DNA from: Nitrospira sp.
Lineage (GTDB): Bacteria; Nitrospirota; Nitrospiria; Nitrospirales; Nitrospiraceae
Assembly (NCBI GenBank): GCA_024760545.1
Contig: CP060501.1
Span: 2,083,501-2,147,500, forward strand
Direction of reading: 5' to 3'
Length of the DNA: 64,000 nucleotides
Shown here: in pieces, positions 1,418 through 18,722 of the stretch
Layout of the letters: the number at the start of each line of letters is the position of its first letter
Numbering within the stretch: the first letter of the stretch is position 1
Program-made: the position numbers and the translations under genes
The notes under the pieces: model-generated
The model's input: the letters and a program-made list of their open reading frames with translations, nothing else
Database searches by the model: none
What the model was told of the DNA's origin: nothing

Positions 1418-3157
1418 TTATGACAGCGACGAATCTCCGGGCGACTGTGCTGAATCGAAGCGCAAGCCGCTCGAGCCTTCGCCTCGTCCAGGCTGCTTCC
1501 GTCGCCCGATCCACAAATAAGTCGATCCATCGGTCCAGCGGGCATATTGGTACGTACGCGTGACCCGGACCCCTTCGCGGGGAACCTCTTCATCCTGCAG
1601 GAGCAGTTCTCGCCCCGGTTCAAGGATGCGTCCGAGTGGTTCCAGCAATCGACCCAGTTCTCCGGCTTCTATCTCCGGAATGACACCACGCTTGAGTCGA
1701 ATGGAATCGCCTGCCAGAACGGGGAGCAGCGGGATCCAATACTCCGGCACTGTCGTGCCCAGCCGATAGATCAGTGCGTCGACCTCCGCGCCCTCAACGG
1801 GAGAAGTTGGGTCCTCCTGCTCCTTCTGATGCTGAGCCTCTTGGTACGCTTCATACCGGTCGAGAGGGTCTCCTGCTTCACTTTCGACGATTCGCTCGAC
1901 TCCCCATGCGACATTGGCCATCTCGTCTCGCAGAAACAACACCTCCTCACAGGGCTGGCTGTGCAAGCTGGGGCCCAACACCGGGGGGAGAAAGAAAAGG
2001 CGTTGAGAATCGTCGGTAAGCCCAAACATCTGCCATGGCGATATCGGTCCCTCCACCTGGCTTGTGTGAGGAATGAGGATGCGCTCGCCGAACGTATTCG
2101 TGACGACAAGTGCTCGAATCTGACAGAGTGATCCGACAGGCAATTCAATCGGGATCGCAAACCAGTCGTTACTGTATTCGAGGGCGAACTTCACCAAGAG
2201 CAGCCTGGCCAGGTCATAAGGCGCCGCATTGATTTGCGCCAAATTGACGGCGCCCTCTTCGAAGTCCCAGAATCGGGAGGACGGCATGCCACGAAACGTC
2301 ACCGGGGCGGGAAGAAACGCGCGGGAGATGGAAGCTCTCGCCTCGCCGGCCCCCAAGGTCTCACCCGGACGGACAACGAACGAAAACCAGTCCAGTGTGC
2401 CTTCGAAGTATTCCGGCGCCGCGAGTACGACCTCTCCGTCTCCTGTCTTGCCGGAGACAGCAAACTCATATTCCATCCTTTCAGGAATCCACGCCGCCGG
2501 GACACCAGGCTGGTGAAACAACGTATCGTACCAGGTGAGCCATGCGGTGATGCCCTGGATGACTTTTTGCCGGTTATTACCGGTGATTTGATCGAACGGA
2601 GATTCCTGAAAGAACTCTTCCAGGGCATTGCGCGTACGCAGTGCGGCGAGTCGCGTACGGAGTCGAACTCCGTCCAAGGCACGCCCCCCTACCACCTGAA
2701 GAAACTGCTGACTGTCACTGTCCAGGCGACGGCGTTGCTCAGCGGATGGTTTGGCGAGCACATATTCGCTGCTCAACCAGACGGAGCGAGAGAGACCCGC
2801 TCCACTGAGATCAAGCAATCGAAGCAAGTGCTGTCCCGTCTTGACGGATTGCCTCCAGTTGCGTGCTCCGTCAGAGACGACCGATTCGCATTCCACCAAC
2901 GTCTCAAGCGGCACTGCAGAAGCCTCATAGCTGCTCGCCGGCTGTGTTTCGGAAGGAGCGCCGGGACGATACCGAGTCACCAAAGCGGTGTCCGCCACGA
3001 CGTGCGTGGATGCCGCCGAACCGGCATCTTCGCCTTTGAATTCACCGAATTGCCACTGCCGAGCCAGCATCCAGAGTGGATCGTGAATGCGTGCTTGCAG
3101 GCCATCCTGCAAATCAGGATTTGTCGTAGTCGGTTCAATGCGAATCTGTGACGCCAT
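1418..3157 (-). CDS. Conserved protein of unknown function, last gene of the six-gene operon
   Basis: 579 residues, no signal peptide and no membrane segment. The start ATG at 3157 lies two bases after the stop of the 1772-residue gene and has GGAGAC upstream, overlapping that stop, so translation is coupled. Residues 22-46 contain a motif (DPLWMLARQWQFGEFKGED) that I recall from other unannotated bacterial proteins; I cannot name a family. The rest is mixed alpha/beta with many W and F residues, and a stretch around residues 325-370 is rich in beta strands. The protein ends in a low-complexity, Ser/Gly-rich tail. Function unknown. Its constant place behind the giant gene suggests a shared complex, which is an inference. 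Confidence 0.8.
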   Translation of the reverse strand: MASQIRIEPTTTNPDLQDGLQARIHDPLWMLARQWQFGEFKGEDAGSAASTHVVADTALVTRYRPGAPSETQPASSYEASAVPLETLVECESVVSDGARNWRQSVKTGQHLLRLLDLSGAGLSRSVWLSSEYVLAKPSAEQRRRLDSDSQQFLQVVGGRALDGVRLRTRLAALRTRNALEEFFQESPFDQITGNNRQKVIQGITAWLTWYDTLFHQPGVPAAWIPERMEYEFAVSGKTGDGEVVLAAPEYFEGTLDWFSFVVRPGETLGAGEARASISRAFLPAPVTFRGMPSSRFWDFEEGAVNLAQINAAPYDLARLLLVKFALEYSNDWFAIPIELPVGSLCQIRALVVTNTFGERILIPHTSQVEGPISPWQMFGLTDDSQRLFFLPPVLGPSLHSQPCEEVLFLRDEMANVAWGVERIVESEAGDPLDRYEAYQEAQHQKEQEDPTSPVEGAEVDALIYRLGTTVPEYWIPLLPVLAGDSIRLKRGVIPEIEAGELGRLLEPLGRILEPGRELLLQDEEVPREGVRVTRTYQYARWTDGSTYLWIGRRKQPGRGEGSSGLRFDSAQSPGDSSLS

Positions 3158-3159
3158 CG

Positions 3160-6100
3160 CTAGTCTCCGGTCGAACGGTCAATGACACTGGAAAGGTCAA
3201 TGCTGGTCCCATCGAAGAGCAGGGCCGGCATCGAGAGATCGGTGGCCGCCGATCCGCCGGGATCCGATGATCGCTTACCCGCATAGTCCCATGTTGCTGT
3301 GCCGTCCCACAGAGTGAACGCCAGACCGTCCACTGCCCGTCCTTCCAATCCCACCAAGGCGGCCGGGACTTCCAAACGCACCCATCGGCCCGCCGGAGGA
3401 AGGAGTCCCATGAATTGACGGCTTACCGTGCCGTCACTTCCCCACGGGATCAAATTTTCTCCCCAATAGGCACGGTGTTCCCATGTACCGTCGTGCCACT
3501 GCAGCATGAGCTGACGCGGCAAGCGTTGCGGATCGAGGTACACGTGAGCAAACAATCGATCGCCCACACTCACGAACAACGGAAACTTCGCGCCTTGAAA
3601 GAAATGTTGATGGAGTTCCGGCACAAGAGCCGATTGATGGGCTTTTCTTCCCGAGAGAGGGTCCGGGTGGGCACGAATCCATGTCCAGCCTTCCCCGTCT
3701 CCGAATGGGCTGGCGCCGGCAGGCAGCTCGTCGTCAACCCAAATTGTTTCTCCCCGACTTTCAGGTGCGACCGCTCGTAGGCGCATCAGATCGGTCGTCT
3801 CCTGCATGATGGCCTCGAGACTGTTCAGATCCCAGACTTCTCGCTGATCGGCGGAGACGGCGAGAAGCAACGCCTGCGGGGGAGCGCTGTTCGGACCGTC
3901 GTAGTGAAACGCGACACCTGTGGTCTCCTGAGGGCTTGGAACGACCTCCACCCATTCATCGATCAGTAGTCCTGTCAGCGGCTGATCGAAGCGAATCGCT
4001 TGACCGAACGGAATTTGTGCCACGAGCGACAGGCGCCCCCGAGGAATGGATTGATTAGGCCCGCTTGGCAACGCCACCCACCGATCCTGCCCTGCAAAGG
4101 GCAATTGGCCGACCTGGAGATTGAGATGCGCCTGCTCCCCAAGCGTCTCGGCATACAGCATCGCCGTCTCCAGGCGCATCGCACCCTGGCGAACATGGGC
4201 CACGCGTTGGAACCAGGTGACGGCTGCCAGCGGATCGTTGCCTTGCAAGGAGAGACTCGCGTCGAACGTTTCGGTCAATTGCGCGGCATTGGCCGGTGCG
4301 ATGTGGGGAAGCGCGAGAAAATCCGATCCGAAGACAGTCTTCAATCGAGCAAGGTCATGCTCCCGCTGCTCCTCAGACAGCGCATGTGCGCGATCGAACG
4401 CACGATCGGCATCGGCAATACGAGACAGCCGTCCTTGCATTTCTGCAGCAACAGAACGCACCTGCGCGAGCAAGAGCGATTGCACCTCCAAGCCCGACCC
4501 CACCGCATCCAACGGAACGGCTGCCGGGATGCCGAATGCCGCGCTTCGCATCAATCCCGTGCGAAGTGTTTCGAGATCGAGCGCGGCGTCGGCGCTCTCA
4601 CTAGGCGGAAGCATCCGCTGAAGATTTTGGCTCGCTTCTGTGAACGACCGCACGGCCTGATCCACTCGGCGACTCAGCTCTAGACTCTGGACGCCTGATA
4701 CAGCCGGTGACTCCGGAAGCGAGAGATCACGTCCATCGATCGACCGCGCGTTGGCAAACAACCGACGCAGGGTGCGGGTCATTTCGAGGAACTCCCCTAC
4801 GCTGACGACATCACTCGGCCAATCGGGGTCACGCTCGAAGCGCAGTCGGATCTGTACCTGAGCGGGGATCGTGGCCGGTCGCGTACGGAGCATGTGATTC
4901 GACCAACGCTGCTCCAGTTCCGCGCGTTGCGCGTGCGCCTGTCCCTCTGCCATGAACACCGCGTCGAGCGGCGAAAGTTTCAGCGCTGCGAGTTCGCCTT
5001 CGAGCGTGTGAACGACGCCGGCGGTTGCGGGATCGACGTAATCAATTCGACAGCGGACCTTGGCGGGATTCGGCAGAAGGGTGGCAGCCCAGGCGTTGAG
5101 TGTCGGCTCTGCAGCGGCGCGCACCTGCTCAGGGCCGGTCGGCCACGTCGAGATCGTTCCCCCGGGTGTCGCAGGAAACAACACGCAGAGACGATGTGTC
5201 AAGCCGATGCCGCTTCGTGGGGTGCGAATGACATCCAATTCGGGAGGCGGCAACTCACCCGTGGCGATGGCATCCAGCGTCGCCCCGGAACGAAGCGGAT
5301 TACCTTGAACGAGTTGATACACACTTTCCGCCACCACCGTGTCACCCACGGCATCGACAAGATCGTCCAGGCTTTTCAGCTGTTCGATCAATGCATTGAA
5401 ATCAGTTGTGCCGGGATTCGGAAAGCCCAGCGTCGTATTGCCGAATGGGATGGTCGTGACGTCCCAGCGCGGCTGACCTGAGGGACTTGACTGACTGTCC
5501 TTCCACCTGCGGTGCAGATCCAGACCGTCCACGACATTGTTGGCCGGCAAGGCCTCAAGGGCTTGGTTCCACCGTTGGGCCAGCAGTGTCGCCAATTCAT
5601 TTCTCGCCGCCGCCAGGCCGGCTTCGGCCCTGCCCGCTAGGCCCTCCTCCTTGTCGATCGCCTGCCGCTCGAACTGTGCGGCAAGCTCCTCGTTGTGCGC
5701 AATCGCGCGTTCTGCCGCGGGAATCGACTCGAGAATCGTAGCATCAAGAAGTCTCGCCGTTGCTTGTTCTGCGTGTGCGTGGTCTGTATCACGGGCGTTC
5801 ACCACAGCGCGGGCTACAGCAGCCTGGGCGATAGCCGTAGAACGATTTTGATCGAGCTCTTCAAGGCGGTTGGCCCATAGGTCCGCGTCCCGTTGCTCGA
5901 GTAATTCAACGGTCATGCGGCCGCTTACCACATCACCTATACGACCCTCCGGCTTCGCGCTCTCGTGCTGGGCCAAGGTCTGAGCAATCTGTCCAACGAG
6001 TGCCTCGGCATTCTGGGCCTGCTGCGCTGTCGCTGCGATGGTGTCGAGCTCGGCGCGATAACTCTGCAGCAGCCCTTCCCGTTCGGTCTTGAGGGACCTC

Positions 6101-8478
6101 ACATCCGTCGCGCTTTGAGCCGCCTGATCCCGCTTCATCCGCAACACCGCAACCTCTTGCGCGAGCCTTTCAGCCAGCACGACTTTCCGGCGCGCATCGG
6201 CAAGCCGGTCATCCTCTTTCAGGCTCGCCAACGCCCGGAATCGGTGGATAAAGCGATCAAGTCCGCTTTCATGGAGCCCTCGCTCGAAGCGATACCCGAG
6301 CAAGGAGGCCAGCGATTGCCCTTGGCGGACTCCGTCAAGCATCCATTTAGCTCGATGGACGCGATCGGACGAGAGATTGACGGCAAACGGACTGTCTTTT
6401 CCATCACCAGTCTGCTTATGAGACAGATAGCCGCTTCGCAGGATCGCAGCCGTCGCCGCGTGGGCAAGAGAGGGCGTATGGACATGGCCTTGGTTGCCGT
6501 TCGCCAAGAAGAGAGGAGCCTCTACCCCTGCAGGAGGCGAGGAGACTGCTTGAAGCGGAACCGCCGCACGCCGCACGTCCTCCACCCAGCCATAGGCTCC
6601 AATGCGAATTCCTGTCGGCTGAGACGTTCGAAGAGCGGCCAGCCGTCTGGTGGCCAACGAGGTGCCCCACGCATCGAGCCGCAACGTTGTGAGGTCGATC
6701 ACTTCGGCAAGCAACGACTGTCGTACATCGTCCGGCAAGGTCAACAGAAAATTCAGTGCGGGATCGGGATGAGCGGCCAAGGCCTGCTTCAGCAGCAGAT
6801 CTCGAAGCGATGCAGCGACAAGCGGTAGCGGGACCGGCGGAGTCCGGCTCGCATCCGAGAATTCTCGTTGGGCATACCCAGCCGAGGTCGCCTGCTGAGC
6901 CAACAACGCAACCGGGTTGTCCTCCGTCAGCGTGCTGAGTGCGCGGGGGATGAGTTGGCGGCGTATCTGACGCTGCTCGAGCCACCAACTTGCCAGTCCT
7001 GGTTCTGGACCAGTGGTCACGTTGGAGGTCCAACGGTCGAACGCGGCCACGGGCAAGATGCCGTATGGTTGTGTGTCGACCCGCAAGACCGGGAAAGGAC
7101 CGCGCGCCCGCACAAACCCCATGAAGTGCTCGCGGAGCATATCTTGACTGATAGAAGCAGACAGTTGCCGCAACAAGGCGCTGTCGCAGGCAGATAACAG
7201 CGCCGTGTTCATGGCCTCAGCGTGACGTTGATCCGTGCCATCTGCTCCACGAACGTGTGCAAAGACGGCAAGGGGCAGTCCCAAGGCTTGCGCCGTCAGT
7301 TGACCGTCGGATCCGGCTTGGGCCAGCGATGCTTCCCGTTCAACGGCAAACGTCACGTCGGCATCTCGGCCGGAACGATATCCAGATGAGCTCTCAGCCG
7401 TGTTGTTGGTCGGTGTATTCTGGCCGATGAACGCTACGCCGTCGGAATAATGGTGCGCATCGAAAAGACTGGCGAGTCGCGCAGCGGTCGCCGGAGCATC
7501 CAGTGAAGCTTTGATTCCAAGGACAACCACACGTTCAAAACCAGCCTTGACCTGTTCTTCGGTGAGGACGATTCGAACCCCCATGCCGACTGATTCGGCC
7601 GTTGCAAAATCGATCATCCAACGCATGCCTTCATCGATGGGCAGGTTGTCATGGTCAGGGAGAGCCCCGGTCTCTTGCGGAGCGGGACCCACCGCCAACT
7701 GATCGGGAATCTGATTGCCCCATGCGGTAATCAGCGGGCGTTCGCCGCGATAGGCGAGCACGACCCACCGGTCCGGTAGGACTCGCGTATGGGGAGCGCG
7801 GGTCCACACATCGGCTCGCCGTCCAGGAGACCTCGATTGACCGGGGTCCAACGCCGTGGCAATCCACGCTGCGCGTGGTGAGCCGAATCGGTCCGCAAGT
7901 TGCCGCCAGGCTTGCCGGTTTATCTCTGCCGGATCTTGGCCTTGGGGAATGGTGGTGACCCGCGTCCAATACTCCCGTCCCCACTGTTCTTCCTCGACGG
8001 TCAACTCCGGCTCATGCGAATCGACGTGAATGTCATCGGGATAGACACGCACCAAGAGTTCGGTGCCGGCTTCACCGCTTCTCGCCATGAATCTGGTTTC
8101 CAGACGGACGGGCAACAACAAGAGTGGTTGTGCGGTGGCCACTCTCCCGCTCAAGCGGTCCGTCCCGAGAAGTCGCGCGGTTGCGGCATCGCGAGCGGTC
8201 CGGTGGTCGGTCAGCCGGGCCGATAGGGTGGCGACCTTGTTCTTCGCTTGCTCCACTGCTCGCTGCGCCACAGGAATTTGCTGCTGCACCTGCGCCAGCT
8301 CGCTCTGCCATTGTGCCCGATCACTCGTCAGTTTGGTCACGAGCCGCTTGGCCGCTTGGGCATTCAGGACAGCACGGCTATGTATCCGCTGAAGTCCCAG
8401 TAGCCGTGTCCTCCAGGCGCGCAGCACCGCGGGGCGGACACGATCCGGAATTTCAGGTCCCTCACCGATCGGCTTCAC
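3160..8478 (-). CDS. Giant 1772-residue conserved unknown protein with two coiled coils
   Basis: Fifth gene of the operon, GTG start at 8478 with AAAAGGA upstream, 24 bases after the coiled-coil gene. Residues 35-105 form a coiled coil. Next comes a conserved-looking block at about 120-173 (LLPVRLETRF, then LLVRVYPDDI and HVDSHEPELT), which I recall from other unannotated proteins. A second long coiled coil rich in A, E, Q and R fills about residues 750-850, and a third alanine-rich helical stretch about 870-1000. The C-terminal third holds beta-rich segments with several tryptophans (for example WTWIRAHPDPLSG), possibly a binding domain. No signal peptide, membrane segment or known catalytic motif is visible. 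The size and mixed coil/beta layout suggest a structural scaffold; function unknown. Confidence 0.8.
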   Translation of the reverse strand: MKPIGEGPEIPDRVRPAVLRAWRTRLLGLQRIHSRAVLNAQAAKRLVTKLTSDRAQWQSELAQVQQQIPVAQRAVEQAKNKVATLSARLTDHRTARDAATARLLGTDRLSGRVATAQPLLLLPVRLETRFMARSGEAGTELLVRVYPDDIHVDSHEPELTVEEEQWGREYWTRVTTIPQGQDPAEINRQAWRQLADRFGSPRAAWIATALDPGQSRSPGRRADVWTRAPHTRVLPDRWVVLAYRGERPLITAWGNQIPDQLAVGPAPQETGALPDHDNLPIDEGMRWMIDFATAESVGMGVRIVLTEEQVKAGFERVVVLGIKASLDAPATAARLASLFDAHHYSDGVAFIGQNTPTNNTAESSSGYRSGRDADVTFAVEREASLAQAGSDGQLTAQALGLPLAVFAHVRGADGTDQRHAEAMNTALLSACDSALLRQLSASISQDMLREHFMGFVRARGPFPVLRVDTQPYGILPVAAFDRWTSNVTTGPEPGLASWWLEQRQIRRQLIPRALSTLTEDNPVALLAQQATSAGYAQREFSDASRTPPVPLPLVAASLRDLLLKQALAAHPDPALNFLLTLPDDVRQSLLAEVIDLTTLRLDAWGTSLATRRLAALRTSQPTGIRIGAYGWVEDVRRAAVPLQAVSSPPAGVEAPLFLANGNQGHVHTPSLAHAATAAILRSGYLSHKQTGDGKDSPFAVNLSSDRVHRAKWMLDGVRQGQSLASLLGYRFERGLHESGLDRFIHRFRALASLKEDDRLADARRKVVLAERLAQEVAVLRMKRDQAAQSATDVRSLKTEREGLLQSYRAELDTIAATAQQAQNAEALVGQIAQTLAQHESAKPEGRIGDVVSGRMTVELLEQRDADLWANRLEELDQNRSTAIAQAAVARAVVNARDTDHAHAEQATARLLDATILESIPAAERAIAHNEELAAQFERQAIDKEEGLAGRAEAGLAAARNELATLLAQRWNQALEALPANNVVDGLDLHRRWKDSQSSPSGQPRWDVTTIPFGNTTLGFPNPGTTDFNALIEQLKSLDDLVDAVGDTVVAESVYQLVQGNPLRSGATLDAIATGELPPPELDVIRTPRSGIGLTHRLCVLFPATPGGTISTWPTGPEQVRAAAEPTLNAWAATLLPNPAKVRCRIDYVDPATAGVVHTLEGELAALKLSPLDAVFMAEGQAHAQRAELEQRWSNHMLRTRPATIPAQVQIRLRFERDPDWPSDVVSVGEFLEMTRTLRRLFANARSIDGRDLSLPESPAVSGVQSLELSRRVDQAVRSFTEASQNLQRMLPPSESADAALDLETLRTGLMRSAAFGIPAAVPLDAVGSGLEVQSLLLAQVRSVAAEMQGRLSRIADADRAFDRAHALSEEQREHDLARLKTVFGSDFLALPHIAPANAAQLTETFDASLSLQGNDPLAAVTWFQRVAHVRQGAMRLETAMLYAETLGEQAHLNLQVGQLPFAGQDRWVALPSGPNQSIPRGRLSLVAQIPFGQAIRFDQPLTGLLIDEWVEVVPSPQETTGVAFHYDGPNSAPPQALLLAVSADQREVWDLNSLEAIMQETTDLMRLRAVAPESRGETIWVDDELPAGASPFGDGEGWTWIRAHPDPLSGRKAHQSALVPELHQHFFQGAKFPLFVSVGDRLFAHVYLDPQRLPRQLMLQWHDGTWEHRAYWGENLIPWGSDGTVSRQFMGLLPPAGRWVRLEVPAALVGLEGRAVDGLAFTLWDGTATWDYAGKRSSDPGGSAATDLSMPALLFDGTSIDLSSVIDRSTGD

Positions 8479-8502: not shown

Positions 8503-9315
8503 TTAGAGAGGCCCTTCGTCAAATGCGGCTGTGATGTTGGTTTCAGCTTCGGCCAGTTCGCGCTGTGCCGATTGGAGTCTCGCTTGAGCATCGGGAAGCC
8601 TCGTCGTCGCGTCCGCGATTCGGTTCATGAGATCATCACGGCGAGCGATGAGGCCGCGCAACTGTTCTTCGGCGTCTTCCTGTTCGAGACGTGCCTGAAC
8701 GCGCGCATCTTCCAACTCAAACACGCGCACCGAAAGTTCTGCGGCCAACTGCTCCACCGTTTTACGGTCGAGCGGCTCTCGGTCGATCTGCGCGTTCACA
8801 TCGGCGATGTTCGTGATCCGCTGTTGCAGCGTCTGCTGACGCGCCTGGACTTCGGCAATCGCGGTCTGCGTGGCGACGACTCCCGCTTGTGCGTCGCCCA
8901 CCTGTCGCTCGGCCCCCTGCACGACCGCCCGTGCCTGAGCCACAGCAGCCTGGCCGCCTCCCAGTCTCGCACGAGTAGCCGCCGCCTGCGTTCGAGCCAG
9001 GTCTCTTTGTCGCTTGAGAGCAGCAAGCAGTCGTCGCCACTCCAGCGGTGAGATACCCGGCTCAGGCTCGGAAGCGTCGAGAATTTGCTGATCCAAATCA
9101 GCCACCCGACTGTCCGCATCGTTGACCGCATCCTGTAATGGAGAAACTTCCGCTTGTCTCTGTGCCAGCTGTGCCTGCGCCACAGATACTTGCGCCTGCG
9201 CGGCGGTCACTGCTTGCTGTTGAGCGCTCAGCTTGGTGGTCAGAGCGGATTGCTCCACGACGACAGCCTGTAATTCAGCCTGAAGTCGCGTTCGTTCTTC
9301 TTCCAAGTAGGGCAT
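8503..9315 (-). CDS. 270-residue coiled-coil protein
   Basis: Starts at ATG 9315 with GGGAGAG upstream, 21 bases after the previous stop. Nearly the whole protein is alpha-helical coiled coil, with runs such as LAQRQAEVSPLQDAV and LQQRITNIADVNAQI. A short break at about residues 80-92 (SEPEPGISPLEW) would make a hairpin of two antiparallel arms. No signal peptide or membrane segment is present. Composition (A, Q, E, R rich) resembles the coils in the adjacent 1772-residue protein, so the two may pair; that is an inference. Short coiled-coil genes of this kind cannot be given a function from sequence. Confidence 0.8.
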   Translation of the reverse strand: MPYLEEERTRLQAELQAVVVEQSALTTKLSAQQQAVTAAQAQVSVAQAQLAQRQAEVSPLQDAVNDADSRVADLDQQILDASEPEPGISPLEWRRLLAALKRQRDLARTQAAATRARLGGGQAAVAQARAVVQGAERQVGDAQAGVVATQTAIAEVQARQQTLQQRITNIADVNAQIDREPLDRKTVEQLAAELSVRVFELEDARVQARLEQEDAEEQLRGLIARRDDLMNRIADATTRLPDAQARLQSAQRELAEAETNITAAFDEGPL

Positions 9316-9336: not shown

Positions 9337-11955
9337 CTACGTCCGTAACCACGTTCTGGCGTGGATGGCCACGCGGAAGGGCGGCTGCCGCGTGATCGAT
9401 GCCATGTGCGCCGAGTTCTTCCCCCAGAGGATGTTGTCACGCACGACGTTTTTCAACAGTCCATCGATGGGCACATAGACAAGTTGCTTGAATGTCTCTT
9501 CACTTGAGGCCAAGTTGCCCCACGAGAGATCGGACCAATGGTCCGGTGTGCCGCCGAACGTTTTGGCCACATCCAATCCAAATCGCGGTTCCGTTGGTTG
9601 CTCTTGGAGCACGAAGAACCAGCCGGGATGACCGCTGTTCTGGCTATTATCCGCACCACGCACGATGGATTTGGTTAAGGCAAACCCGAGCATGGTGGTA
9701 TCCGGCGCCTGCGTGGCTCGAAACATGGGATACAGCTCATTGGTGCCCAATTCACGGCGGGTGCCGTCGGCCGACCAGATCCCCTCTACGGCGTAGACCA
9801 TGGCACGAGGATAGCGGCGAAGCAAATCTCCGCGAATCAAGAGGACCAGCTGGCCTTCGCTCGATCCCTGTGCCCCATGACTGCCAAGATGGCTTTCGTC
9901 ACTCCATGTCGCAATTGCAGTGATATCCCGGCGGGCCTCGCGCTCTTGCTCGCTGCCCTCAAGCAGATCCCCCTGGGCGTCCCAAAACTGGCGAAAGTAA
10001 GTGCCGCGCTGATCGGTTGGGAACCCTCGCCACAACAGCTCACGGCTCATTTCGTGGTTGAGGCCCACCATATAAGCTTCGATGAATGAGGGATTCGTTT
10101 GGAGCAACGCGATACTGTTGGCGGGGACCTGATCCATGCCGGGCAGCAGCATATCGGGGAACGCATCCCGCATTGGCTCATACATGGGTTGGGGAAAGGT
10201 CGGGGCAAAAAGGGCGACGTCGATGCTTTCGGCGGAAGGGACCGTTTCACGCACTGCTGTCAGTACGGTTGCCTTGGGATCGAGCTGCGTCAGGATGTTC
10301 GCTTTCAGTCCGGCCCAGTCGGCAGCCAACTGAATGCGTCGATGCGTCTCGCTCAGCGTTGCGGCGGCAAACAGACGAGACGTGTCCGCCTCGCGTCTGC
10401 TGAATGGGGCAGGAATCTGGTTGCTCAGACGCGCGGCATCGATGTGGCCGAGCCGTGTGGCCAGCGGCCCGCGAGGCCGATTGAAACGACGAAAGGTACC
10501 CGAAAGCGCGGCATGTCCGACTAGACGCCGAGGATCGGACGGTAACCCGGCCGGCGGCGCCAAATCTTTGAGGCTACCAAGCGTAGGACCGGCGAACTGG
10601 AGCAGTCTCGAAGGATCGAGAGACGCCAGATGTTTTTTCACCAGCGAGCCGCCGACCGTTTCGGCCAACTGCGCACGCTTCAAGCGCAGATTGTCCTGCT
10701 TCTTTTTTTCGAGCTGATCCCACGCCGATGCCATAAGCTGTTCTTGATCCTGCTGCACGACATAGGTGCCCAGACCAGCCGCGACACGATACCGGGGGTC
10801 CGAATTCAGTTCGCGAAACCAATGTGGAGGCTGACTTGCCGCTGGAACCGTTTCCTGTTTCGCGTACCACTGACCGTAGAGCGGCGGGCCCAACGTGGCC
10901 GGTGTACCGGTCGAATTGAGGGAAGCCGGAATATTGAGAATCGTGCGAAGGGAGTTTTGAAAGGCAGTACGTGCCGGTTCCGGCCAGTCGCGCGGGTTCG
11001 TTTCGGGGGTCCGAAGCGCTCCTTCGAGATCAAGCACGGTCCCGTCAGACCCTCTCGGCTTGGAGGGCATTCCCCAACCCGGCGCGCTGATGTCGAGTTG
11101 GCGCAATCCGATGGTCTCGGGAAGCGGCTTCGCTTCAATACGCCGGGCAAGCGATTCAAAATCGCCTTCAATCCCTGTACGGAATTCCCAGTGGAAATAG
11201 ACCGGCAGCGTGAGAGTAGCGGTTGTGCCTGCTCCTGAACTTGCAGACCAGGCCGCCTTCATGGCCTGTTCCTCTTCGGGCGTAACGGCCTCGCCAAGAC
11301 CGGTTTTCAGACCAACCTCGAAGGTTGGTACCAGACAAGCATAGTACGCCGTGTTGGGATCGAGACGACGCGGACTGAGAAGTCGTGACAGAGTTCGCTC
11401 GGGGTGTTGATTCAAAATCTGCTTGAGTGCCGGATGTGGCGACGGATCGGGAGGGGCTTGGTCGCTCGACACGATTTGCGCGTGTGCCCAGGCCCAAGAT
11501 TCTTCGAGATTGGGTAATTCCCCTCGTGGGCACTCGAGTACCGAGAGTGGTTTACCGGCATCCGTCGTGAGTGTCGCTCCCTCCTTTTTCACGACAATCA
11601 AGCAAATCCACGGAAGGAGTCGTCGATTGCCATCCGCGTTCGCGGGAGTGAAAAGCCAGGGGAAATCCGGCCGATCGAATTCGATACTCGGGAAATAGTT
11701 CGGCTCGAAATCGGTCATGAAACGAGGCGGCTCGAGCCGAATCACTTCTCGAGCATCCAGACCCGTCACATCGCCGGGTCCATAGAGCTGCGCGTCGATG
11801 TCAACGGGCTGGCCGTCGTTCACCCGCAAACGGACGGGATACTCAAGGCGCCCGGCGTTCGTAGCAGGTGATCCTCCAACATTCGACAAGTCCGCGAGAA
11901 GTCCCTGTCTCAACCAGGAAAAGAATCGATATGTGGCTTGCGGCAGATCGGGCAT
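9337..11955 (-). CDS. 872-residue conserved unknown protein
   Basis: ATG at 11955 with GGAAGG about a dozen bases upstream, 20 bases after the stop of the beta-rich gene. Residues 38-125 form a beta-rich N-terminal domain (RLEYPVRLRV, PPRFMTDFEPNYFPS, FPWLFTP). Near residue 635 is a motif, NHEMSRELLWRGFPTDQRGT, which I remember as recurring in unannotated proteins from several phyla. It contains a His-Glu pair but not a complete metallopeptidase signature. The C-terminal part (GFALTKS, GWFFVLQEQPTEPRFG) is well structured. No signal peptide, membrane segment or catalytic site could be recognised. It is probably a partner of the 579- and 1772-residue proteins in a common assembly, by gene order only. 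Confidence 0.8.
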   Translation of the reverse strand: MPDLPQATYRFFSWLRQGLLADLSNVGGSPATNAGRLEYPVRLRVNDGQPVDIDAQLYGPGDVTGLDAREVIRLEPPRFMTDFEPNYFPSIEFDRPDFPWLFTPANADGNRRLLPWICLIVVKKEGATLTTDAGKPLSVLECPRGELPNLEESWAWAHAQIVSSDQAPPDPSPHPALKQILNQHPERTLSRLLSPRRLDPNTAYYACLVPTFEVGLKTGLGEAVTPEEEQAMKAAWSASSGAGTTATLTLPVYFHWEFRTGIEGDFESLARRIEAKPLPETIGLRQLDISAPGWGMPSKPRGSDGTVLDLEGALRTPETNPRDWPEPARTAFQNSLRTILNIPASLNSTGTPATLGPPLYGQWYAKQETVPAASQPPHWFRELNSDPRYRVAAGLGTYVVQQDQEQLMASAWDQLEKKKQDNLRLKRAQLAETVGGSLVKKHLASLDPSRLLQFAGPTLGSLKDLAPPAGLPSDPRRLVGHAALSGTFRRFNRPRGPLATRLGHIDAARLSNQIPAPFSRREADTSRLFAAATLSETHRRIQLAADWAGLKANILTQLDPKATVLTAVRETVPSAESIDVALFAPTFPQPMYEPMRDAFPDMLLPGMDQVPANSIALLQTNPSFIEAYMVGLNHEMSRELLWRGFPTDQRGTYFRQFWDAQGDLLEGSEQEREARRDITAIATWSDESHLGSHGAQGSSEGQLVLLIRGDLLRRYPRAMVYAVEGIWSADGTRRELGTNELYPMFRATQAPDTTMLGFALTKSIVRGADNSQNSGHPGWFFVLQEQPTEPRFGLDVAKTFGGTPDHWSDLSWGNLASSEETFKQLVYVPIDGLLKNVVRDNILWGKNSAHMASITRQPPFRVAIHARTWLRT

Positions 11956-11975: not shown

Positions 11976-14900
11976 TTACGCCACGAGCTCAGCGGCGCGA
12001 TAGCGGGCTCGGCCGTGGCGGCGCAGCACGGCTTGGCCCGCCGCCCCAAAGACGGCCGCCCGCGTCAGCACCGCCGCCGGCAGGGTGTAGCCCGGCTGCG
12101 CCGGCTCCGGCGGCCGCGTCGGATCGAGGATGAGGGTCTCATACCGCAGCGGACCGGTAAGCGCCGGGTCCTCGTCAAAGGCCACCGTGTCCGGCGTGAG
12201 GCTCAGCCCCGCCTCGTGCGTCTCAAAGGCCGGCCGCGCGAGCAGTTCGTCGTCCCGCAAATCCTCAAATTGCGCCAAGGCAAACGGCTCCTGCACCGGG
12301 GTGGTCGACACCGGTTGCGGCGTCGCACTGCGATTGGTGGCGGTGACGGTCACGGTGGTGGGGCCGCCGCGCAACGGCGCGGTGCCGAGTTTCGTAATCC
12401 GGCGCTTGAGCGGGACCACCCGCTCGCGCACGGTCAGCTCCGCTAACGGGTGCACCCGCAGGGTTTGTGCGGCGAGTGTCGTCTCGCGCAGGGTGACGAT
12501 GGTGGGCTCGGTGCGCGGGAGTGTCGCGCTCCAGTTGCGGCGGTCCCGGAGGGCGTCGGTGACCAAGGCCAGCACATCGACGGCCGCAGGCAACGGGGGC
12601 ACGGTCCGGGAGCCGAACTGCCGCTCAAAATGCACGGACACTTTGAAGAACAGAATTTTGATGGTGGCCTTGCCCTCTACCTGCCAGGGCGTGGGACCAG
12701 CGAGCATCCCGCTGAACGAGATCCCCATCAGCAGACGGCCCCGGTAGCGCAAGGCAATGGCCGCCGCGACATCGACTTGAAACGCCAACGGCGCCAGTTG
12801 CACGAGGGCATCGAAGCTCAGCATGCCGTCGAAGCTGAAGCCGCCGCCCGCCGCATGCAAATCCACGCGGGCTCCGAACTGCACGGTGTTGGAGGTGACG
12901 GCGAGATAGGCCTGGCAACGCAGCTGCAAGTTGTCGCCATCGGCCAGGGTCAGCGCGAGGCGGCTGAGGACGGGCAGGCCCGCCGGCGCCGGAAATCGTG
13001 GATGGACTCCTCCGATGGCCAGCACGAGGTTCGGCTGGCTCCCCCAGCGGGCGCGCAGGGCCATGTCCCCGGTCAGGGTGAAGTCCAGGATGCGCGAGTC
13101 GTAGAGCGTGGCATCGAGGGCCACGGTGCCTTCATTGAAATCCAGCACGCCTAAGGCATCCATGCGGATCTGGACCAGCGGATGACTCTGGTTGGGCAGC
13201 AGGACTTGCAGCCGGCCCAGCACGATGAGGCGCACCGGTGTCGGCAGTTCGAGCAGCACCGCCAGATCGAGGGTCAACAAGGTGGGCGTGCCCCAGCGCA
13301 GTTGGACCATCGGGCCCAGGACATGCCGCCCGGGGGCGGGTGGGAACACGGCCCGCAGGTCGCTCACGAGTTGCGGCGCGTTCCGCACCGGATCACGGGG
13401 AAACAGCAGTGAATCCAGGGTGCCGGTCTTGAGTCCTTGGCGCACGGTCTCGGTGCGCACGGTGCGGTTGATGCCCAGCAGGCCCCCGATGCCGGTCAGG
13501 GTAAAGCCAAAGCCCAGGGGAATGGGCGTGAACCCCTCGGCGGTGATGAGCAGCACGAGGGAGTAGCCCTTGCTCCCATCGGGCAACCGGGTGCTCAAGA
13601 GCCCGATCGCCTTCACGGCGATGCGTTCGCCCAATTCAAGCTGCAGCACCCCGCCGTACTCGCCCTTCGCCGGGTCGAAGAACAGGAATCCGCCCCCCGC
13701 CACCCCCGGCCCATTAATCGCCAATCCCACCCCACTCGGCGGCTTGAAGCTCGGAGAGAGGTCGAACAAGCCGAGGTTTCCTTCTCTGAAAGATACGCTG
13801 ACGGTCACGCCAAGTCGCTCGATCGTGGCAGTGATTGGCCCGATGCTGAGGCTTCCGTTTATGCTCGCTTCTATATCGAATCCGTCCTCTTGAACATCGA
13901 AACCCAGATGGAGAGCCTGCAGATGTAATGGACCGACCGATTTGTTCAGAGACAGACTGATATCCAATCCGCCGGCTCCTTGGAAGTAGATGCCTCGTTG
14001 GCTCGTCCAGCCGAGCAGGAGGTCGAATGGCGTGTTGATTCGATCTCGACCAATCGTTCCGACTAGAAATCCGTCGGCTTCGGACAACGGCATCACCACG
14101 TCAGCGCCGGTGAGAGCAAGTTCAAGAAAACTTTCGTGGCTGGTATCCGTGCTCTTGTCAAACCCACCTTTGAACGAAATCTGTCGGACCGTCAGAGCCG
14201 AACCGCCGGGAAATGAGACCAAGGTAAAAGGCGTGCCGTCGGGGTGACCATGACGGAAACCCATCATGACGCGGCCGTTCGCGAGCTTTCCCAAGCTGGG
14301 GGCAGTGTGAACCTGTAACGGCAGGTTGGGTCGGAGAATCATCGCCGTACGTCTGAGCACGTCGGCCTGAGCAGAGAGTTCAATGACCGTATCTTCGACT
14401 ATATGCAGGGGGATTTCGCCATCCACTTGTCCCCGTATGATCGGTAACAGCCCAATGCCACCGTCCTCGGCATTCGGCGAGGTCGGCCTCGCGCCAAACA
14501 ATGACAGCCCGACAATCAGTCCCCCGATGTCGCCGACTTGTTCGTAGAGATGAGTGATCAGTTGGAGGGATGAATCTGTTTCATCTTCGCGCAGCCGGCG
14601 ACCGAGAAGAATCTCTTCGGCACGACGTTCCATGGCTTGAAACCGAACCGTCGAGCCGAGTGCACGTAACACCTGACCAATTCGATTAACAAGATCCTCG
14701 ACGGCAAAATGGGAAGTGCCCCACCCGTATGTTTCTCGCAGATGTCGTGATGGATCTGACAGTAATGCCTTCAGATGATTGTAATGAACGATGGCGCGAA
14801 TGTGCTCGACCTGATGGATGCTCTCATCGGCTGCGAAATGTTTGAACTCGAAAATGTTCATCAGATGGAGAACGGCGGAAGCTAGCGGAGATGTACTGGA

Positions 14901-15317
14901 GAGATAACTGGTCAGCAGCAAATCGAAGATTCGTCTAGGAAGCTGCGTATGAATGTTGGTGCGGGAAATATAATCGCCTTGCACGGCGAGGCGCGTCGGC
15001 AGCTCGTCGGAATATCGGTTGATGTCCTGGACCAGTTTCCCCATGGCGCTCGCAAGTTCCCCGACGCGAACCGCCATCAATACCTCATCCTCCCATTCGG
15101 CTTCGGAAGACTCCAAGACGATATGGAGCTTGGCGAGAAAGTTCGTCAGGTCGATCCCGGTCAGCCCTATCTCTTCCAGTCCGGGTGGGAGCTTCCATCC
15201 CAGAAAGTTGACGAATGCGTTGGCCGAGGCGGAAGTCCGCGCGACTTCCTTGAGGATCGACAGGGCCTTACCGAGCCCGAGCGCCGAATTGGTGACCGTA
15301 TTCCCCATGCTCGACAC
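11976..15317 (-). CDS. 1113-residue beta-rich protein, DUF6603-like
   Basis: GTG start at 15317 immediately after the PLD gene stop, with GGAG inside the end of that gene; an in-frame ATG at 15308 is an alternative. The N-terminal 300 residues are mostly helical (long segments around residues 60-130 and 165-250). From about residue 330 onward the protein is a long run of amphipathic beta strands with a Gly-rich centre (GVGLAINGPG, then VKAIGLLSTRLPDGS and GFTLTGIGGLLGINR). That centre matches what I remember of proteins carrying DUF6603, a family without known function. Sequence after about residue 526 (below 13740) is markedly richer in G+C than the N-terminal part. Function unknown; long strand arrays of this kind can form lipid-binding grooves or fibres, but this is speculation. 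Confidence 0.8.
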   Translation of the reverse strand: MSSMGNTVTNSALGLGKALSILKEVARTSASANAFVNFLGWKLPPGLEEIGLTGIDLTNFLAKLHIVLESSEAEWEDEVLMAVRVGELASAMGKLVQDINRYSDELPTRLAVQGDYISRTNIHTQLPRRIFDLLLTSYLSSTSPLASAVLHLMNIFEFKHFAADESIHQVEHIRAIVHYNHLKALLSDPSRHLRETYGWGTSHFAVEDLVNRIGQVLRALGSTVRFQAMERRAEEILLGRRLREDETDSSLQLITHLYEQVGDIGGLIVGLSLFGARPTSPNAEDGGIGLLPIIRGQVDGEIPLHIVEDTVIELSAQADVLRRTAMILRPNLPLQVHTAPSLGKLANGRVMMGFRHGHPDGTPFTLVSFPGGSALTVRQISFKGGFDKSTDTSHESFLELALTGADVVMPLSEADGFLVGTIGRDRINTPFDLLLGWTSQRGIYFQGAGGLDISLSLNKSVGPLHLQALHLGFDVQEDGFDIEASINGSLSIGPITATIERLGVTVSVSFREGNLGLFDLSPSFKPPSGVGLAINGPGVAGGGFLFFDPAKGEYGGVLQLELGERIAVKAIGLLSTRLPDGSKGYSLVLLITAEGFTPIPLGFGFTLTGIGGLLGINRTVRTETVRQGLKTGTLDSLLFPRDPVRNAPQLVSDLRAVFPPAPGRHVLGPMVQLRWGTPTLLTLDLAVLLELPTPVRLIVLGRLQVLLPNQSHPLVQIRMDALGVLDFNEGTVALDATLYDSRILDFTLTGDMALRARWGSQPNLVLAIGGVHPRFPAPAGLPVLSRLALTLADGDNLQLRCQAYLAVTSNTVQFGARVDLHAAGGGFSFDGMLSFDALVQLAPLAFQVDVAAAIALRYRGRLLMGISFSGMLAGPTPWQVEGKATIKILFFKVSVHFERQFGSRTVPPLPAAVDVLALVTDALRDRRNWSATLPRTEPTIVTLRETTLAAQTLRVHPLAELTVRERVVPLKRRITKLGTAPLRGGPTTVTVTATNRSATPQPVSTTPVQEPFALAQFEDLRDDELLARPAFETHEAGLSLTPDTVAFDEDPALTGPLRYETLILDPTRPPEPAQPGYTLPAAVLTRAAVFGAAGQAVLRRHGRARYRAAELVA

Positions 15318-17423
15318 CTACTGCTCCAACTTCCCGGTTGCGAAGTCGAACTTGTCAGCCGCAGAACGAATCCTGAGATCGTTCGTCTTCACACCCAGCG
15401 CGCGGAGATAGGGCTCGGACTCCTTTTCCGGCTGCCAGGCGAGAATCTTCGCCGGGTGTTTCGTCCGTTGGGTAGCCGGTTTCGATGGTTCGAGCTGAAG
15501 ATTCTTGGATTTATCTTCAGCGCGCTGATTCCAGAACTCAACCCAGCCGGACCCTGGAGTCGGAGGCAGTGACGTGAGGCCAAGATGTTCACCCCAGAGT
15601 GATTGGCGAAACGCGGTGACGGTCTGGTTGGGAACCGCCGAATCAGGCTGCTTCTCGCATATCACCACGTTCAACTCCGTCGAGCGAGTCGGCTGCCTTG
15701 TCTGGCCAGGATTGGCATGTTGTGTCGGCCGTGCTGTTCCAATCTTGACGGCTGCGACAATAGCGATGACGAGCGGACTTAACAGCCAGATGACGATGCC
15801 CATCATCAGTTTCTTCCACCATTTCCCGTCCTCGATCTGATCGGCCAGCTTCTCTTCCACAATAGTGGACAGCTGAATCTGGTTCAGAGATGCGCCGTCC
15901 AAGTTAGCGCTACCCACCGTCGCCCACACATCATCAACGATCGCCACTTTGCTGTGGACATAAATGGGCATGATCTCGTATTTCTGGGCGGTTTCTTGAC
16001 AACTCCAGATGGTGAAGAGGCCGAGGCGCTTCTTTACCAGCGGCTCTCCCAATGCTTTGACGAGATCGGAGCGGAACTGCTTGATCAATTGAATTTGCTT
16101 TTCCGGATAACCGGAAACATCCGGTTTGGCGTTCATGACGAGAATGACTTCCAACTTGGACGCTTCCTGCATCCGCATTCGCTCAAGCAAGGCGTCGAAG
16201 ATCTCCGGCGCGGTAAAATACTGATCTTCGAGATAGACAAAGTTTTTGGCCTGAGCGATGGCGCGTTGGTAAGCCTCCAGCGCGCCGGTTTCTCCATGAG
16301 GAAGCGCAGGTCCCCCCGTGTGTGAAGTCGTAAATGTTCCGCCCGGGAGGGTACGAATGACCTGAACGCCGATGCCCGGTTGGGCTGCCGCGGCCTGTCC
16401 CGTGGCGGGAGAGAGCGCAGATGATGATGAGTCCGCCGCATTCCATATGGTCGTGAATGTACGGTCGATATGCTCAACGGCCGGCCCTTCCACTTTCACA
16501 CTGATGTCATGAATCAAGGAACCGCGATGGCGACGATCTTGAATCATATGGTCAGGAGCCCCGAAGTATGATTGCGACATGGTAGAGCCCAATACAAAGG
16601 CCGTCTTCCCGTCGAGAATAACCGCCTTCGCATGCATAAAGGACGGAAGGTTGAGCGGGGAAAGAAAAATGGGGAACGAACGGACTCTGGCGCTGCTGTT
16701 CTTGAAGAAATCCTCCACCAAGCCGTCGGTGTCGGCGCCGAAGATTCTGCCGAACAGGGGAACATCCTGAACAAGAATGTTGATGGACGCAAGCGTGGCG
16801 GCTTTGGTCTTGAGGATTTCATGCACTCTCAACCCATTGACCGGCACATTCTCGGGCGGCGGGTCGGGAACGAATTTAGTGATCAGATTCTTCCCCAGCC
16901 AAAAATTCATGTTCATGAAATGGATAGACGTGCCGGCTTTATTGATGTCATCGGTCAGCAGAGGAAACAGTTTCTCCCCGTCTTTCAAAATGACCACTTC
17001 GTTGCCGGTGGTCCAGGTGATGGGAGTCCCATCGGCACGAAGATTGGGATTAGTGGGGTCGAGCGTGGCGTTAGTCACCAGCCAGCCTTCGATATTGGCC
17101 CGATGGATGTTGATCGTGGTGAGAGTCAGCGTGCCGTCGGTGACGTCCTTGTGCTCGGCGGTCTGATGCAACAATCGCAACCCCGGCCCGTAGATCCTCA
17201 CGACGATGTCGGGGTTTCTGTCGAGTACCCAGGCCCGGTATTGGTCAGGAGAGTACGCAATGCTGAACGATCCATTGTCATCACTGAAGACCGCCTTGGA
17301 GTCCTTGTTAAGGATCTCCTCGGAAAACAGCGGATCGAAATCCACCGCGACGATCGCGAGGCCTTTGATCCCCTTATCCGTTCCGGCGTAGACGACGCGG
17401 CCCTGAACGCTTGTATTGGCCAT
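15318..17423 (-). CDS. Phospholipase D superfamily protein with N-terminal beta domain and a membrane segment
   Basis: 701 residues, first gene of the operon. Residues 1-110 resemble a carboxypeptidase-regulatory or transthyretin-like beta sandwich. Two complete HKD motifs follow: H264-x-K266-x4-D271 and H490-x-K492-x4-D497, each followed by a GS pair (GST, GSAN), as required for a pseudo-dimeric PLD active site. A hydrophobic segment spans about residues 539-560 after a WWKK anchor, and a basic/polar tail of about 140 residues follows. PLD enzymes cut or transfer phosphodiester bonds in lipids or nucleic acids; the substrate cannot be told here. ATG at 17423; the binding site is weak. The promoter at 17465-17493 lies just upstream. 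It sets this operon apart as a possible effector with partners. Confidence 0.85.
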   Translation of the reverse strand: MANTSVQGRVVYAGTDKGIKGLAIVAVDFDPLFSEEILNKDSKAVFSDDNGSFSIAYSPDQYRAWVLDRNPDIVVRIYGPGLRLLHQTAEHKDVTDGTLTLTTINIHRANIEGWLVTNATLDPTNPNLRADGTPITWTTGNEVVILKDGEKLFPLLTDDINKAGTSIHFMNMNFWLGKNLITKFVPDPPPENVPVNGLRVHEILKTKAATLASINILVQDVPLFGRIFGADTDGLVEDFFKNSSARVRSFPIFLSPLNLPSFMHAKAVILDGKTAFVLGSTMSQSYFGAPDHMIQDRRHRGSLIHDISVKVEGPAVEHIDRTFTTIWNAADSSSSALSPATGQAAAAQPGIGVQVIRTLPGGTFTTSHTGGPALPHGETGALEAYQRAIAQAKNFVYLEDQYFTAPEIFDALLERMRMQEASKLEVILVMNAKPDVSGYPEKQIQLIKQFRSDLVKALGEPLVKKRLGLFTIWSCQETAQKYEIMPIYVHSKVAIVDDVWATVGSANLDGASLNQIQLSTIVEEKLADQIEDGKWWKKLMMGIVIWLLSPLVIAIVAAVKIGTARPTQHANPGQTRQPTRSTELNVVICEKQPDSAVPNQTVTAFRQSLWGEHLGLTSLPPTPGSGWVEFWNQRAEDKSKNLQLEPSKPATQRTKHPAKILAWQPEKESEPYLRALGVKTNDLRIRSAADKFDFATGKLEQ

Positions 17424-17628: not shown

Positions 17629-18651
17629 CTACTTGACGATAACCTCAACTCGTCGATTCTTGGCTCGGCCCTCTGCCGTGTTGTTGTTTGCAACCGGATT
17701 GCTTTCTCCATGACCAGCAGCCGACAGGTTGCTGGTGAGCCCTCCGCCACGTAAAGCCTGGGCTGCGCTCTCCGCGCGAGCGTCCGATAGCTCCTTATTC
17801 GTCGGAAATTTTTTCTTTAAAGCACTCCTGATCGGAACATTGTCGGTGTAGCCGGCCACATGGACCTGCTTTTCCGGAAAGTCTTTCAGGACGCCACCCA
17901 CTCGTTGCAAGGCATCGGCTCCGGCACGCTTGAGTTGATCTTGGCCTGAGTCAAAGAGATAACCGGAAGCCAAGTTGATCAGAAGACGCTCGCTGTTCAG
18001 ATCGACCGCAATATTACCCTTGGCGATCTCAGGACGGAGAGCTCGGATCAGCCCACGCTGCGCCTCTTGCAGCTTCGCCGTTTCAGCGGACAAGTCGCCC
18101 CGCAGACCAGCGAGTTCCTTGTCACGATCGGCGAGCTGGCTTTCCAGATCAGCCACACGCTGGTTGGCGGCCGCGAGTTCTGCGGCAAGCCGGTCCTTAT
18201 CCCCACTGTGTTGCCGGGCGGCGGCCAGTTCCGCCGCGAGGCCATCCTTCTCCATTTGCGCTGCCGATAGTTGACTGGCGAGAGTCACAGAGTCGCCGGT
18301 ACTGGAGCGTAAGGCGACGATCTCCCGATCGCGGTCGGCGAGCTGTCTCTCCAAATCGCTCACGCGGTTGCTCAGCGTTCCATTTTGCTTCCGAGCCGCT
18401 TCCAGTTCATCGGCCAATCGTTGCCGATCTCGTTCCAGGGCCGCCAGACGGGCAGCCATTTCTTGTGATGCATCAGGCGGGACGACCTTTGCAGTTGAAG
18501 GGCACCCCGAGCCTTGGTGATAGCCGTACCATTGGTCGATACACACGGTCGGCTGCTTGATATACGCATCGGGGTGCTGCTTCAGAAATGATGAACAACC
18601 CATCAAGGCAACCAAGATCGCCATGCCTATTGCCGTCTTAAGTGTCCTCAT
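17629..18651 (-). CDS. OmpA-family lipoprotein with periplasmic coiled coil
   Basis: 340 residues from ATG 18651, which has AAGGAG eight bases upstream; an in-frame upstream start would cover the binding site. The signal peptide ends in a lipobox (LMGC), so the protein is lipid-anchored. Residues about 75-205 are a coiled coil with an internal repeat (LADRDREIVAL and LADRDKELAGL). The C-terminal 130 residues form an OmpA/MotB-type peptidoglycan-binding domain (GYTDNVPIRS, a RAESAAQ helix and the closing NRRVEV). It should tether an envelope layer to the cell wall across the periplasm. It follows mscL by 71 bases on the same strand. Confidence 0.88.
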   Translation of the reverse strand: MRTLKTAIGMAILVALMGCSSFLKQHPDAYIKQPTVCIDQWYGYHQGSGCPSTAKVVPPDASQEMAARLAALERDRQRLADELEAARKQNGTLSNRVSDLERQLADRDREIVALRSSTGDSVTLASQLSAAQMEKDGLAAELAAARQHSGDKDRLAAELAAANQRVADLESQLADRDKELAGLRGDLSAETAKLQEAQRGLIRALRPEIAKGNIAVDLNSERLLINLASGYLFDSGQDQLKRAGADALQRVGGVLKDFPEKQVHVAGYTDNVPIRSALKKKFPTNKELSDARAESAAQALRGGGLTSNLSAAGHGESNPVANNNTAEGRAKNRRVEVIVK

Positions 18652-18722
18652 GATGATCTCCTTACCTTCCAGGCACGTGACATACGCCACGCAACCTTCA
18701 CGCTCCGTGTATCGCTGTCACG

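Follow-up and report, generated by a model that had tools for sequence, protein, structure and literature searches.

A proposed modular enzyme-scaffold locus in Nitrospira with a constant half likely enriched in G+C by biased gene conversion

Introduction

Concerted evolution, biased gene conversion, and modular polymorphic proteins are each known already. Rhs genes, for instance, have a GC-rich core and an AT-rich tip. Rhs and other polymorphic toxins consist of a constant part joined in frame to variable modules that are exchanged by recombination, and the variable part is compositionally unlike the constant part (PMC3482391). Both features recur in the Nitrospira locus described here, as do hydrolase activities. 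However, the layout is a mirror image, because the variable module is N-terminal, the enzyme is encoded by a separate upstream gene, and no toxin is found at the C terminus. Rhs/YD repeats are also absent (DUF6603 is the only Pfam match in the protein, and NCBIfam gives nothing), and no known delivery gene was recognized.

Tandem paralogues of T7SS immunity genes offer a second parallel, in that conserved blocks direct recombination through which variable parts are gained, lost, and reshuffled, as here (PMC9484751). Those genes are small, and the abstract of that account describes no GC step in them, whereas the present locus has a 590-codon constant domain and front halves that are linked to enzymes. 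In tuf and nifH, two copies are kept near-identical by gene conversion (PMC8223754), and the same is seen in relatives of our locus, but at this locus the converted tract ends at a module seam, beyond which the two copies are unrelated to each other.

A relationship between G+C content and recombination that is independent of codon selection has been reported for bacteria (PMC4450053), and the arms of primate X palindromes, which share >99% identity, are GC-richer than their flanks (PMC8981503). As in both of those systems, G+C is high here where recombination is frequent; what differs is that the effect is large (from 0.68 to 0.93 at four-fold degenerate sites), that it lies inside one bacterial gene, and that single-copy genes in the same operons serve as controls, with the bias itself being deduced. 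The bias is contested in bacteria, where Bobay and Ochman, as cited in PMC8223754, reported AT-biased conversion. As far as shown by the literature searched, in which DUF6603 is not mentioned, the combination of these processes, the mirror-image layout, and the family are undescribed.

A G+C step inside one open frame

The stretch of DNA analyzed, here called the window, comprises 64,000 nucleotides from a comammox Nitrospira genome with six amoC, two amoA, one hao, and two nxrB genes (nxrB and hao named from sequence). The only DUF6603 gene of this genome lies at 11976-15317 on the minus strand and encodes 1113 amino acids. A first-pass annotation had reported that G+C shifts sharply within this gene near 13740, reaches 65-83% in single rows, and falls again where the gene ends at 11976, with the reading frame kept throughout, and our measurements bear out each of these points. 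GC3 steps from 0.61 to 0.85 at codon 513 (support range, 511-538; position 13778), with a log-likelihood gain of 40, where 25 other window genes gave no more than 7.1. G+C at four-fold degenerate sites (GC4) steps from 0.68 to 0.93 at codon 522 (515-563; about 13751). Position 13740 corresponds to about codon 527 and falls inside the seam described below, the 200-base G+C profile of the gene has a maximum of 0.75, consistent with the row values, and background is regained at the stop codon, the adjoining downstream gene having a GC4 of 0.69. A single open frame runs all through. Since the step is present at four-fold degenerate sites, it is synonymous, and amino acid composition was ruled out as its source.

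Among 176 open reading frames (ORFs) of at least 200 amino acids, taken from 13 pieces of the same genome, this step is the strongest within a gene (gain, 39), followed by one at the over-extended start of hao (gain, 21.1). The back half of the DUF6603 gene is the only 394-site stretch in that sample with a GC4 above 0.81, and its front half and neighbor genes lie near the genome mean of about 0.67.

Organization of the locus

All parts of the locus are on the minus strand. Immediately upstream of the DUF6603 gene, 15318..17423 encodes a 701-amino-acid phospholipase D (PLD)-like enzyme (Pfam PLDc_2, 2.2e-12; PLDc, 5.4e-8) in which the HKD motif occurs twice, as HAKAVILD (residue 264) and as HSKVAIVD (residue 490). 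This enzyme is the first part of a variable cassette, the second being the front half of the DUF6603 gene (codons 1 to ~522; 13752..15317; GC4, 0.68), for which a helical domain followed by beta strands is predicted. A seam zone at codons 512-545 (13683..13784) leads into the constant, GC-rich back half (11976..13751; GC4, 0.93), which holds most of DUF6603 and a C-terminal tail. The DUF6603 profile (PF20248) matches residues 457-1023 over positions 1-501 of 502 (E value, 2e-139; 465.9 bits against a cut-off of 27).

Four conserved genes follow downstream. They encode an 872-amino-acid protein without a Pfam family (9337..11955; GC4, 0.69), a coiled-coil-like protein of 270 amino acids (8503..9315), a 1772-amino-acid protein without a family match that has relatives downstream of DUF6603 in Nitrospira and Actinobacteria (3160..8478), and a 579-amino-acid protein, also without a family match (1418..3157), whose N terminus resembles that of the product encoded after the 1772-type gene in five other loci (L018-L020, L023, and L024). 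The order in the window is therefore PLD, DUF6603, 872, 270, 1772, 579, and a near-identical locus is present in Nitrospira sp. BO4. In two-copy genomes, the order is enzyme 1, DUF6603 copy 1, enzyme 2, DUF6603 copy 2, 872, 270, 1772, and recombination between two back halves would be expected to produce the arrangement in the window.

The locus maps show no small conserved gene after the cassette that might encode immunity, although immunity genes need not belong to a known family. PADLOC, PHROGs, and NCBIfam yielded no system name for the locus; hits to anti-phage defense components were confined to generic PLD (DrmC, weak) and subtilase matches, with none for DUF6603 or the 872, 1772, and 579 proteins. 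A phage origin of the gene was likewise set aside after no match was found in phage records. No secretion signal was obvious by eye at the N termini of the cluster proteins. Separately, OmpA-like lipoprotein genes related to the single one at 17629-18690 of the window occur in tandem beside the locus in two relatives (L073:1945-3936 and L075:2884-4993).

Exchange of front halves with their enzymes

DUF6603 loci were gathered from 20 genomes of the same phylum, one of which belongs to the window's own species and 11 of which have two copies. Trees were quick searches under one model, which support the grouping but not the fine branching. The front-half tree sorts perfectly by the enzyme family encoded upstream, with six types separated by five changes, the minimum. 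The types are PLD, which precedes every type-A front half, subtilase S8, M64 peptidase, PhoD-like, and two that are unassigned; catalytic motifs are present in the PLD, S8, and M64 enzymes. The 872-gene tree instead follows genomes and pairs the window with CG24A, and the back-half tree places the two copies of one genome as closest relatives in 9 of 11 cases (L066 is unresolved, and the copies of L064 lie apart). As judged from these trees, the back half and the downstream genes follow the genome, and the front half follows the upstream enzyme family.

CG24A, a sister species and the nearest relative of the window, provides the clearest case. Its back half and 872 protein are 88% and 84% identical in amino acids to those of the window (76% and 67% for Nitrospira defluvii), but its front half is unrelated to the window's, and a PhoD-like enzyme stands in place of PLD. 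Identity between the two breaks at codon 523, at 13751. As CG24A retains the back half and the 872 gene but has neither the front half nor the enzyme of the window, it is the front half together with its enzyme that was exchanged. Cassettes of close relatives thus differ at the seam, with the window species carrying one copy and the PLD cassette, and we hold the seam and the modular exchange to be highly probable.

These results turn around part of the earlier interpretation, in which the C-terminal half had been proposed as the exchanged part: it shares the history of the downstream gene, and the opposite half moved. A recombination seam inside the gene is upheld, but the high-G+C donor that was proposed with it is not, as the relatives above 50% identity that our searches found are all Nitrospira. 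Import of the back half from a GC-rich relative or another bacterium would account for a step that is both sharp and synonymous, and in one group of relatives (g12), GC4 is indeed somewhat raised (about 0.72-0.92) across most of the cluster. Nevertheless, a search of genome contigs and of the phylum found no close back-half relatives outside Nitrospira, the nearest being actinobacterial loci at just 40% identity. Moreover, the distances of the back half and of the 872 gene to CG24A and N. defluvii are proportional, yet only the back half is GC-rich, and the trees do not put the window's back half in a higher-GC clade away from its 872 gene. Four-fold sites have also largely been replaced since the split from CG24A with GC4 still at 0.93, unlike the result of a one-time import, which we regard as very improbable.

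Concerted evolution of back halves in relatives

In all 11 two-copy genomes, the back halves of the two copies share 86-100% DNA identity (about 99-100% in eight genomes and 86-97% in three), compared to 39-44% for the front halves. The break in identity falls at codons 512-545 in 10 of the 11 genomes and at codon 427 in the remaining one (L077), and it coincides with the G+C step. By comparison, most blocks of the window's back half are roughly 20-35% divergent from those of other species. Near-identity within genomes combined with this divergence between species indicates that the copies of one genome evolve together. Copies are more alike within than between genomes in nine of the 11 two-copy relatives, the window genome having one copy, and concerted evolution of the back halves is very probable. 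Repeated gene conversion or repeated re-duplication thus keeps a genome's copies of this constant part almost the same as far as a fixed seam.

The second of these routes deserves consideration. Recent, repeated duplication and loss of the constant part with new cassettes, in place of continuing conversion and with high G+C of unrelated cause, would be in keeping with the single copies in the window and in CG24A. It would also fit L077, where a truncated 872 copy (the first ~100 codons, L077:13563-13880) lies downstream of the extra DUF6603 copy and is the footprint of a recent 2558-base duplication. However, the front halves and enzymes of both cassettes recur in many species with their order unchanged (PLD or PhoD, then S8), which implies that the pair is old and the back halves are young, and the pairs at 86-97% identity look like partial conversion. 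As the general explanation, re-duplication therefore seems unlikely to us.

Many homologues show the same G+C step, including those of single-copy L078 and L080, and back-half GC4 exceeds 872-gene GC4 in 19 of the 19 Nitrospirota loci compared. Taken alone, this breadth would suit an ancient composition bias of the domain without any exchange. The trees of the two halves disagree, though, single-copy L073, L079, L081, and L082 have little or no step between halves, and paralogue identity breaks at the seam, all of which make such a bias barely credible. The test proposed at the outset, in which the same shift in homologues and one shared tree for both halves would favor ancient bias over transfer, gave a split result: the shift is indeed shared by homologues, but the tree is not shared by the halves, so that neither simple transfer nor ancient bias fits.

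As a side observation, contigs of many draft genomes (G371, G369, G225, G217, G245, G360, and G291) end inside the DUF6603 back half. Such breaks are as expected of an identical repeat, and DUF6603 copy number is probably under-counted.

Maintenance of high G+C content

In the back half, four-fold identity of the window to CG24A is 0.60, where saturation would give 0.47, and GC4 is still 0.94 and 0.92 in the two. Lineage-specific changes in the back half comprise 43 swaps between G and C (S>S) and 11 losses of G or C (S>W), whereas the 872 gene has 16 S>S and 42 S>W changes (Fisher P = 3e-8). That these sites have largely turned over since the split with GC4 still above 0.9 argues that high G+C in the back half is maintained.

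One process that could maintain it is selection for GC-ending codons on the back half only, acting through translation speed, translation accuracy, or mRNA structure. Genes that are presumably highly expressed (tuf, amoA, amoC, nxrB, and single-copy hao) also have a GC4 above 0.9. Both halves of the DUF6603 gene are translated equally often, however, and ribosomal protein genes (0.56-0.72), fusA, and amoB have values close to background. Nor is any particular set of codons favored: G and C endings are about equally used in the back half (0.47 and 0.46), GGG and CGG are the codons preferred in tuf, and many changes are of the S>S kind. Codon selection is accordingly improbable, a little more so than re-duplication. 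The suggestion of the first-pass annotation that the half is under different selection is, if read as expression-linked codon choice, not favored by the same evidence; biased gene conversion, which leaves a pattern like that of selection, fits better.

Other homogenized duplicates in the same genome

Further duplicates that are homogenized in this genome likewise have an extreme GC4. The tuf copies are 100% identical with a GC4 of 0.96, and the adjoining, apparently single-copy fusA is at 0.62. In 14 genomes of the phylum, tuf has a GC4 of 0.90-0.99, even where its neighbors are near 0.45. For amoC, GC4 follows identity to the nearest copy: 0.97-0.98 in four copies at 99-100%, 0.88 at 91%, and 0.80 at 80%. 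The amoA copies have a GC4 of 0.93-0.95, compared to 0.62 for the apparently single-copy amoB of the same operon. The duplicated amoC-amoA tract (L149:7734-10769 and L152:1924-3699) is 96.9% identical over 1791 bases and ends just after amoA; amoB, which directly follows and has no match in the second operon, drops to 0.62 from 0.95 in amoA. The amoA/amoB border is a second sharp G+C step at the edge of a homogenized tract. Similarly, the nxrB copies (L233/L234; C1:4094651-4095937 and 2267899-2269185) are 100% identical with a GC4 of 0.97, and the adjoining nxrA copies, which are mostly 60-99% identical per 150 columns, are at 0.83. The nxr genes were located via composition, as the PF14711 and narG profiles did not find them.

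In a sample of 1.97 Mb, which is not fully blind because the tuf and amo pieces were included on purpose, nine of 1367 ORF entries have a GC4 of at least 0.90, and all nine are tuf, amoC, amoA, nxrB, or hao. Only hao (L099:3549-5180; genome position 1303549-1305180) departs from the association of extreme GC4 with homogenized duplicates, being single copy with a GC4 of 0.93-0.96; a second copy is thus not necessary for high GC4. A 75-base hao-like piece was noted at C1:145374-145448. Duplication alone is also insufficient, since other duplicates at 91-96% identity, some of them perhaps mobile, have an ordinary GC4 of 0.46-0.79. Two copies of a gene block about 55 kb apart, at L225:214-2641 and L227:15375-17188 (92.5% identity; GC4, 0.63-0.79), resemble a mobile or plasmid-like element that has been duplicated.

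High G+C at synonymous sites is, with the exception of hao, limited to converted tracts, as seen at the DUF6603 seam, at tuf/fusA, amoCA/amoB, and nxrB/nxrA, and along the amoC gradient. It also appears independent of selection for particular codons, given the 43 S>S versus 11 S>W changes, the use of both G and C endings, and the background values of ribosomal protein genes. Several observations count against this reading. In the window genome, which has one copy, no conversion between copies is ongoing now, single-copy L078 and L080 are stepped too, and the identical back-half pair of L077, which the truncated 872 copy marks as a recent duplication, has a GC4 of only 0.70. Furthermore, tuf, amo, and nxrB presumably rank with the most highly expressed genes, which makes expression a partial confounder. 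GC-biased gene conversion is nonetheless the best, if unproven, reason for the high G+C, and we consider it fairly probable.

Protein model and wider distribution

The predicted model of the window's DUF6603 protein (mean pLDDT, 64; pTM, 0.40) has a helical front (residues 2-244), an antiparallel beta run (348-901), and a disordered tail (905-1113), and the seam coincides with, or directly follows, a low-confidence interstrand loop (512-515). A fold search returned porin-like matches with Z scores up to 14.7, but with a root mean square deviation of about 10 Å over 262 residues for a model of this pTM; these are generic barrel-like or beta-sheet look-alikes, and we assign no fold family. A sequence search of solved structures gave chance coiled-coil matches only, and the model of the 872-amino-acid protein (mean pLDDT, 31) was left out of the analysis.

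Plasmids of Streptomyces, haloarchaea, Gemmatirosa, Paraburkholderia, Rhizobium, and Nocardia carry DUF6603 homologues, several of which have a large gene upstream and large uncharacterized genes downstream. Their presence in Streptomyces and haloarchaea makes an outer-membrane role unlikely. A PhoD-like gene lies upstream of one haloarchaeal homologue, and M64-like genes lie upstream of two actinobacterial ones. On a Natrinema plasmid (L091:12152-16995), the upstream gene and front half have a GC4 of 0.40 and the rest is at 0.79 (step gain, 43). This step is about 130 codons nearer the start and represents a separate intragenic step, in an archaeon.

Conclusions and significance

We consider it likely that the G+C shift is best explained by a modular enzyme-scaffold locus whose constant part was enriched in G+C by biased gene conversion. 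The front half and the hydrolase gene directly upstream form one exchangeable cassette, and the DUF6603 back half is a chassis that does not vary and remains joined to the 872-270-1772-579 block downstream. Many relatives carry two cassettes side by side, each ending in its own chassis copy, and GC-biased conversion between the copies may have driven the chassis to a GC4 of about 0.93. The front half and the neighbors would have been left near the genome mean, hence the sharp shift.

Functionally, the front half may act as an adaptor for its enzyme, and the chassis, with its long antiparallel beta structure, may plug the enzyme into a common complex. The back half would dock to the conserved downstream proteins, so that interchangeable hydrolases could be loaded on one scaffold. 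These adaptor and scaffold roles could as easily be wrong as right. We propose, more tentatively still, that the locus represents an undescribed but widespread modular system of bacteria and haloarchaea, in which hydrolases with their own adaptor halves share a DUF6603 chassis and a downstream complex, with copies driven by conversion to extreme G+C, and that the same process operates in tuf, amoCA, and nxrB.

Whether bacterial gene conversion favors G+C is a disputed question. If the proposal is true, tuf, amoCA, and nxrB in Nitrospira would supply direct, within-operon evidence for GC-biased conversion in bacteria. With converted and unconverted parts inside one gene or operon of one genome, the effect of copy homogenization can be told apart from those of expression and mutation bias. 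In addition, the locus defines an unnamed modular family in which four unrelated kinds of enzyme travel with matching scaffold front halves. Finally, intragenic G+C steps can be used elsewhere to find conversion seams and swappable modules.
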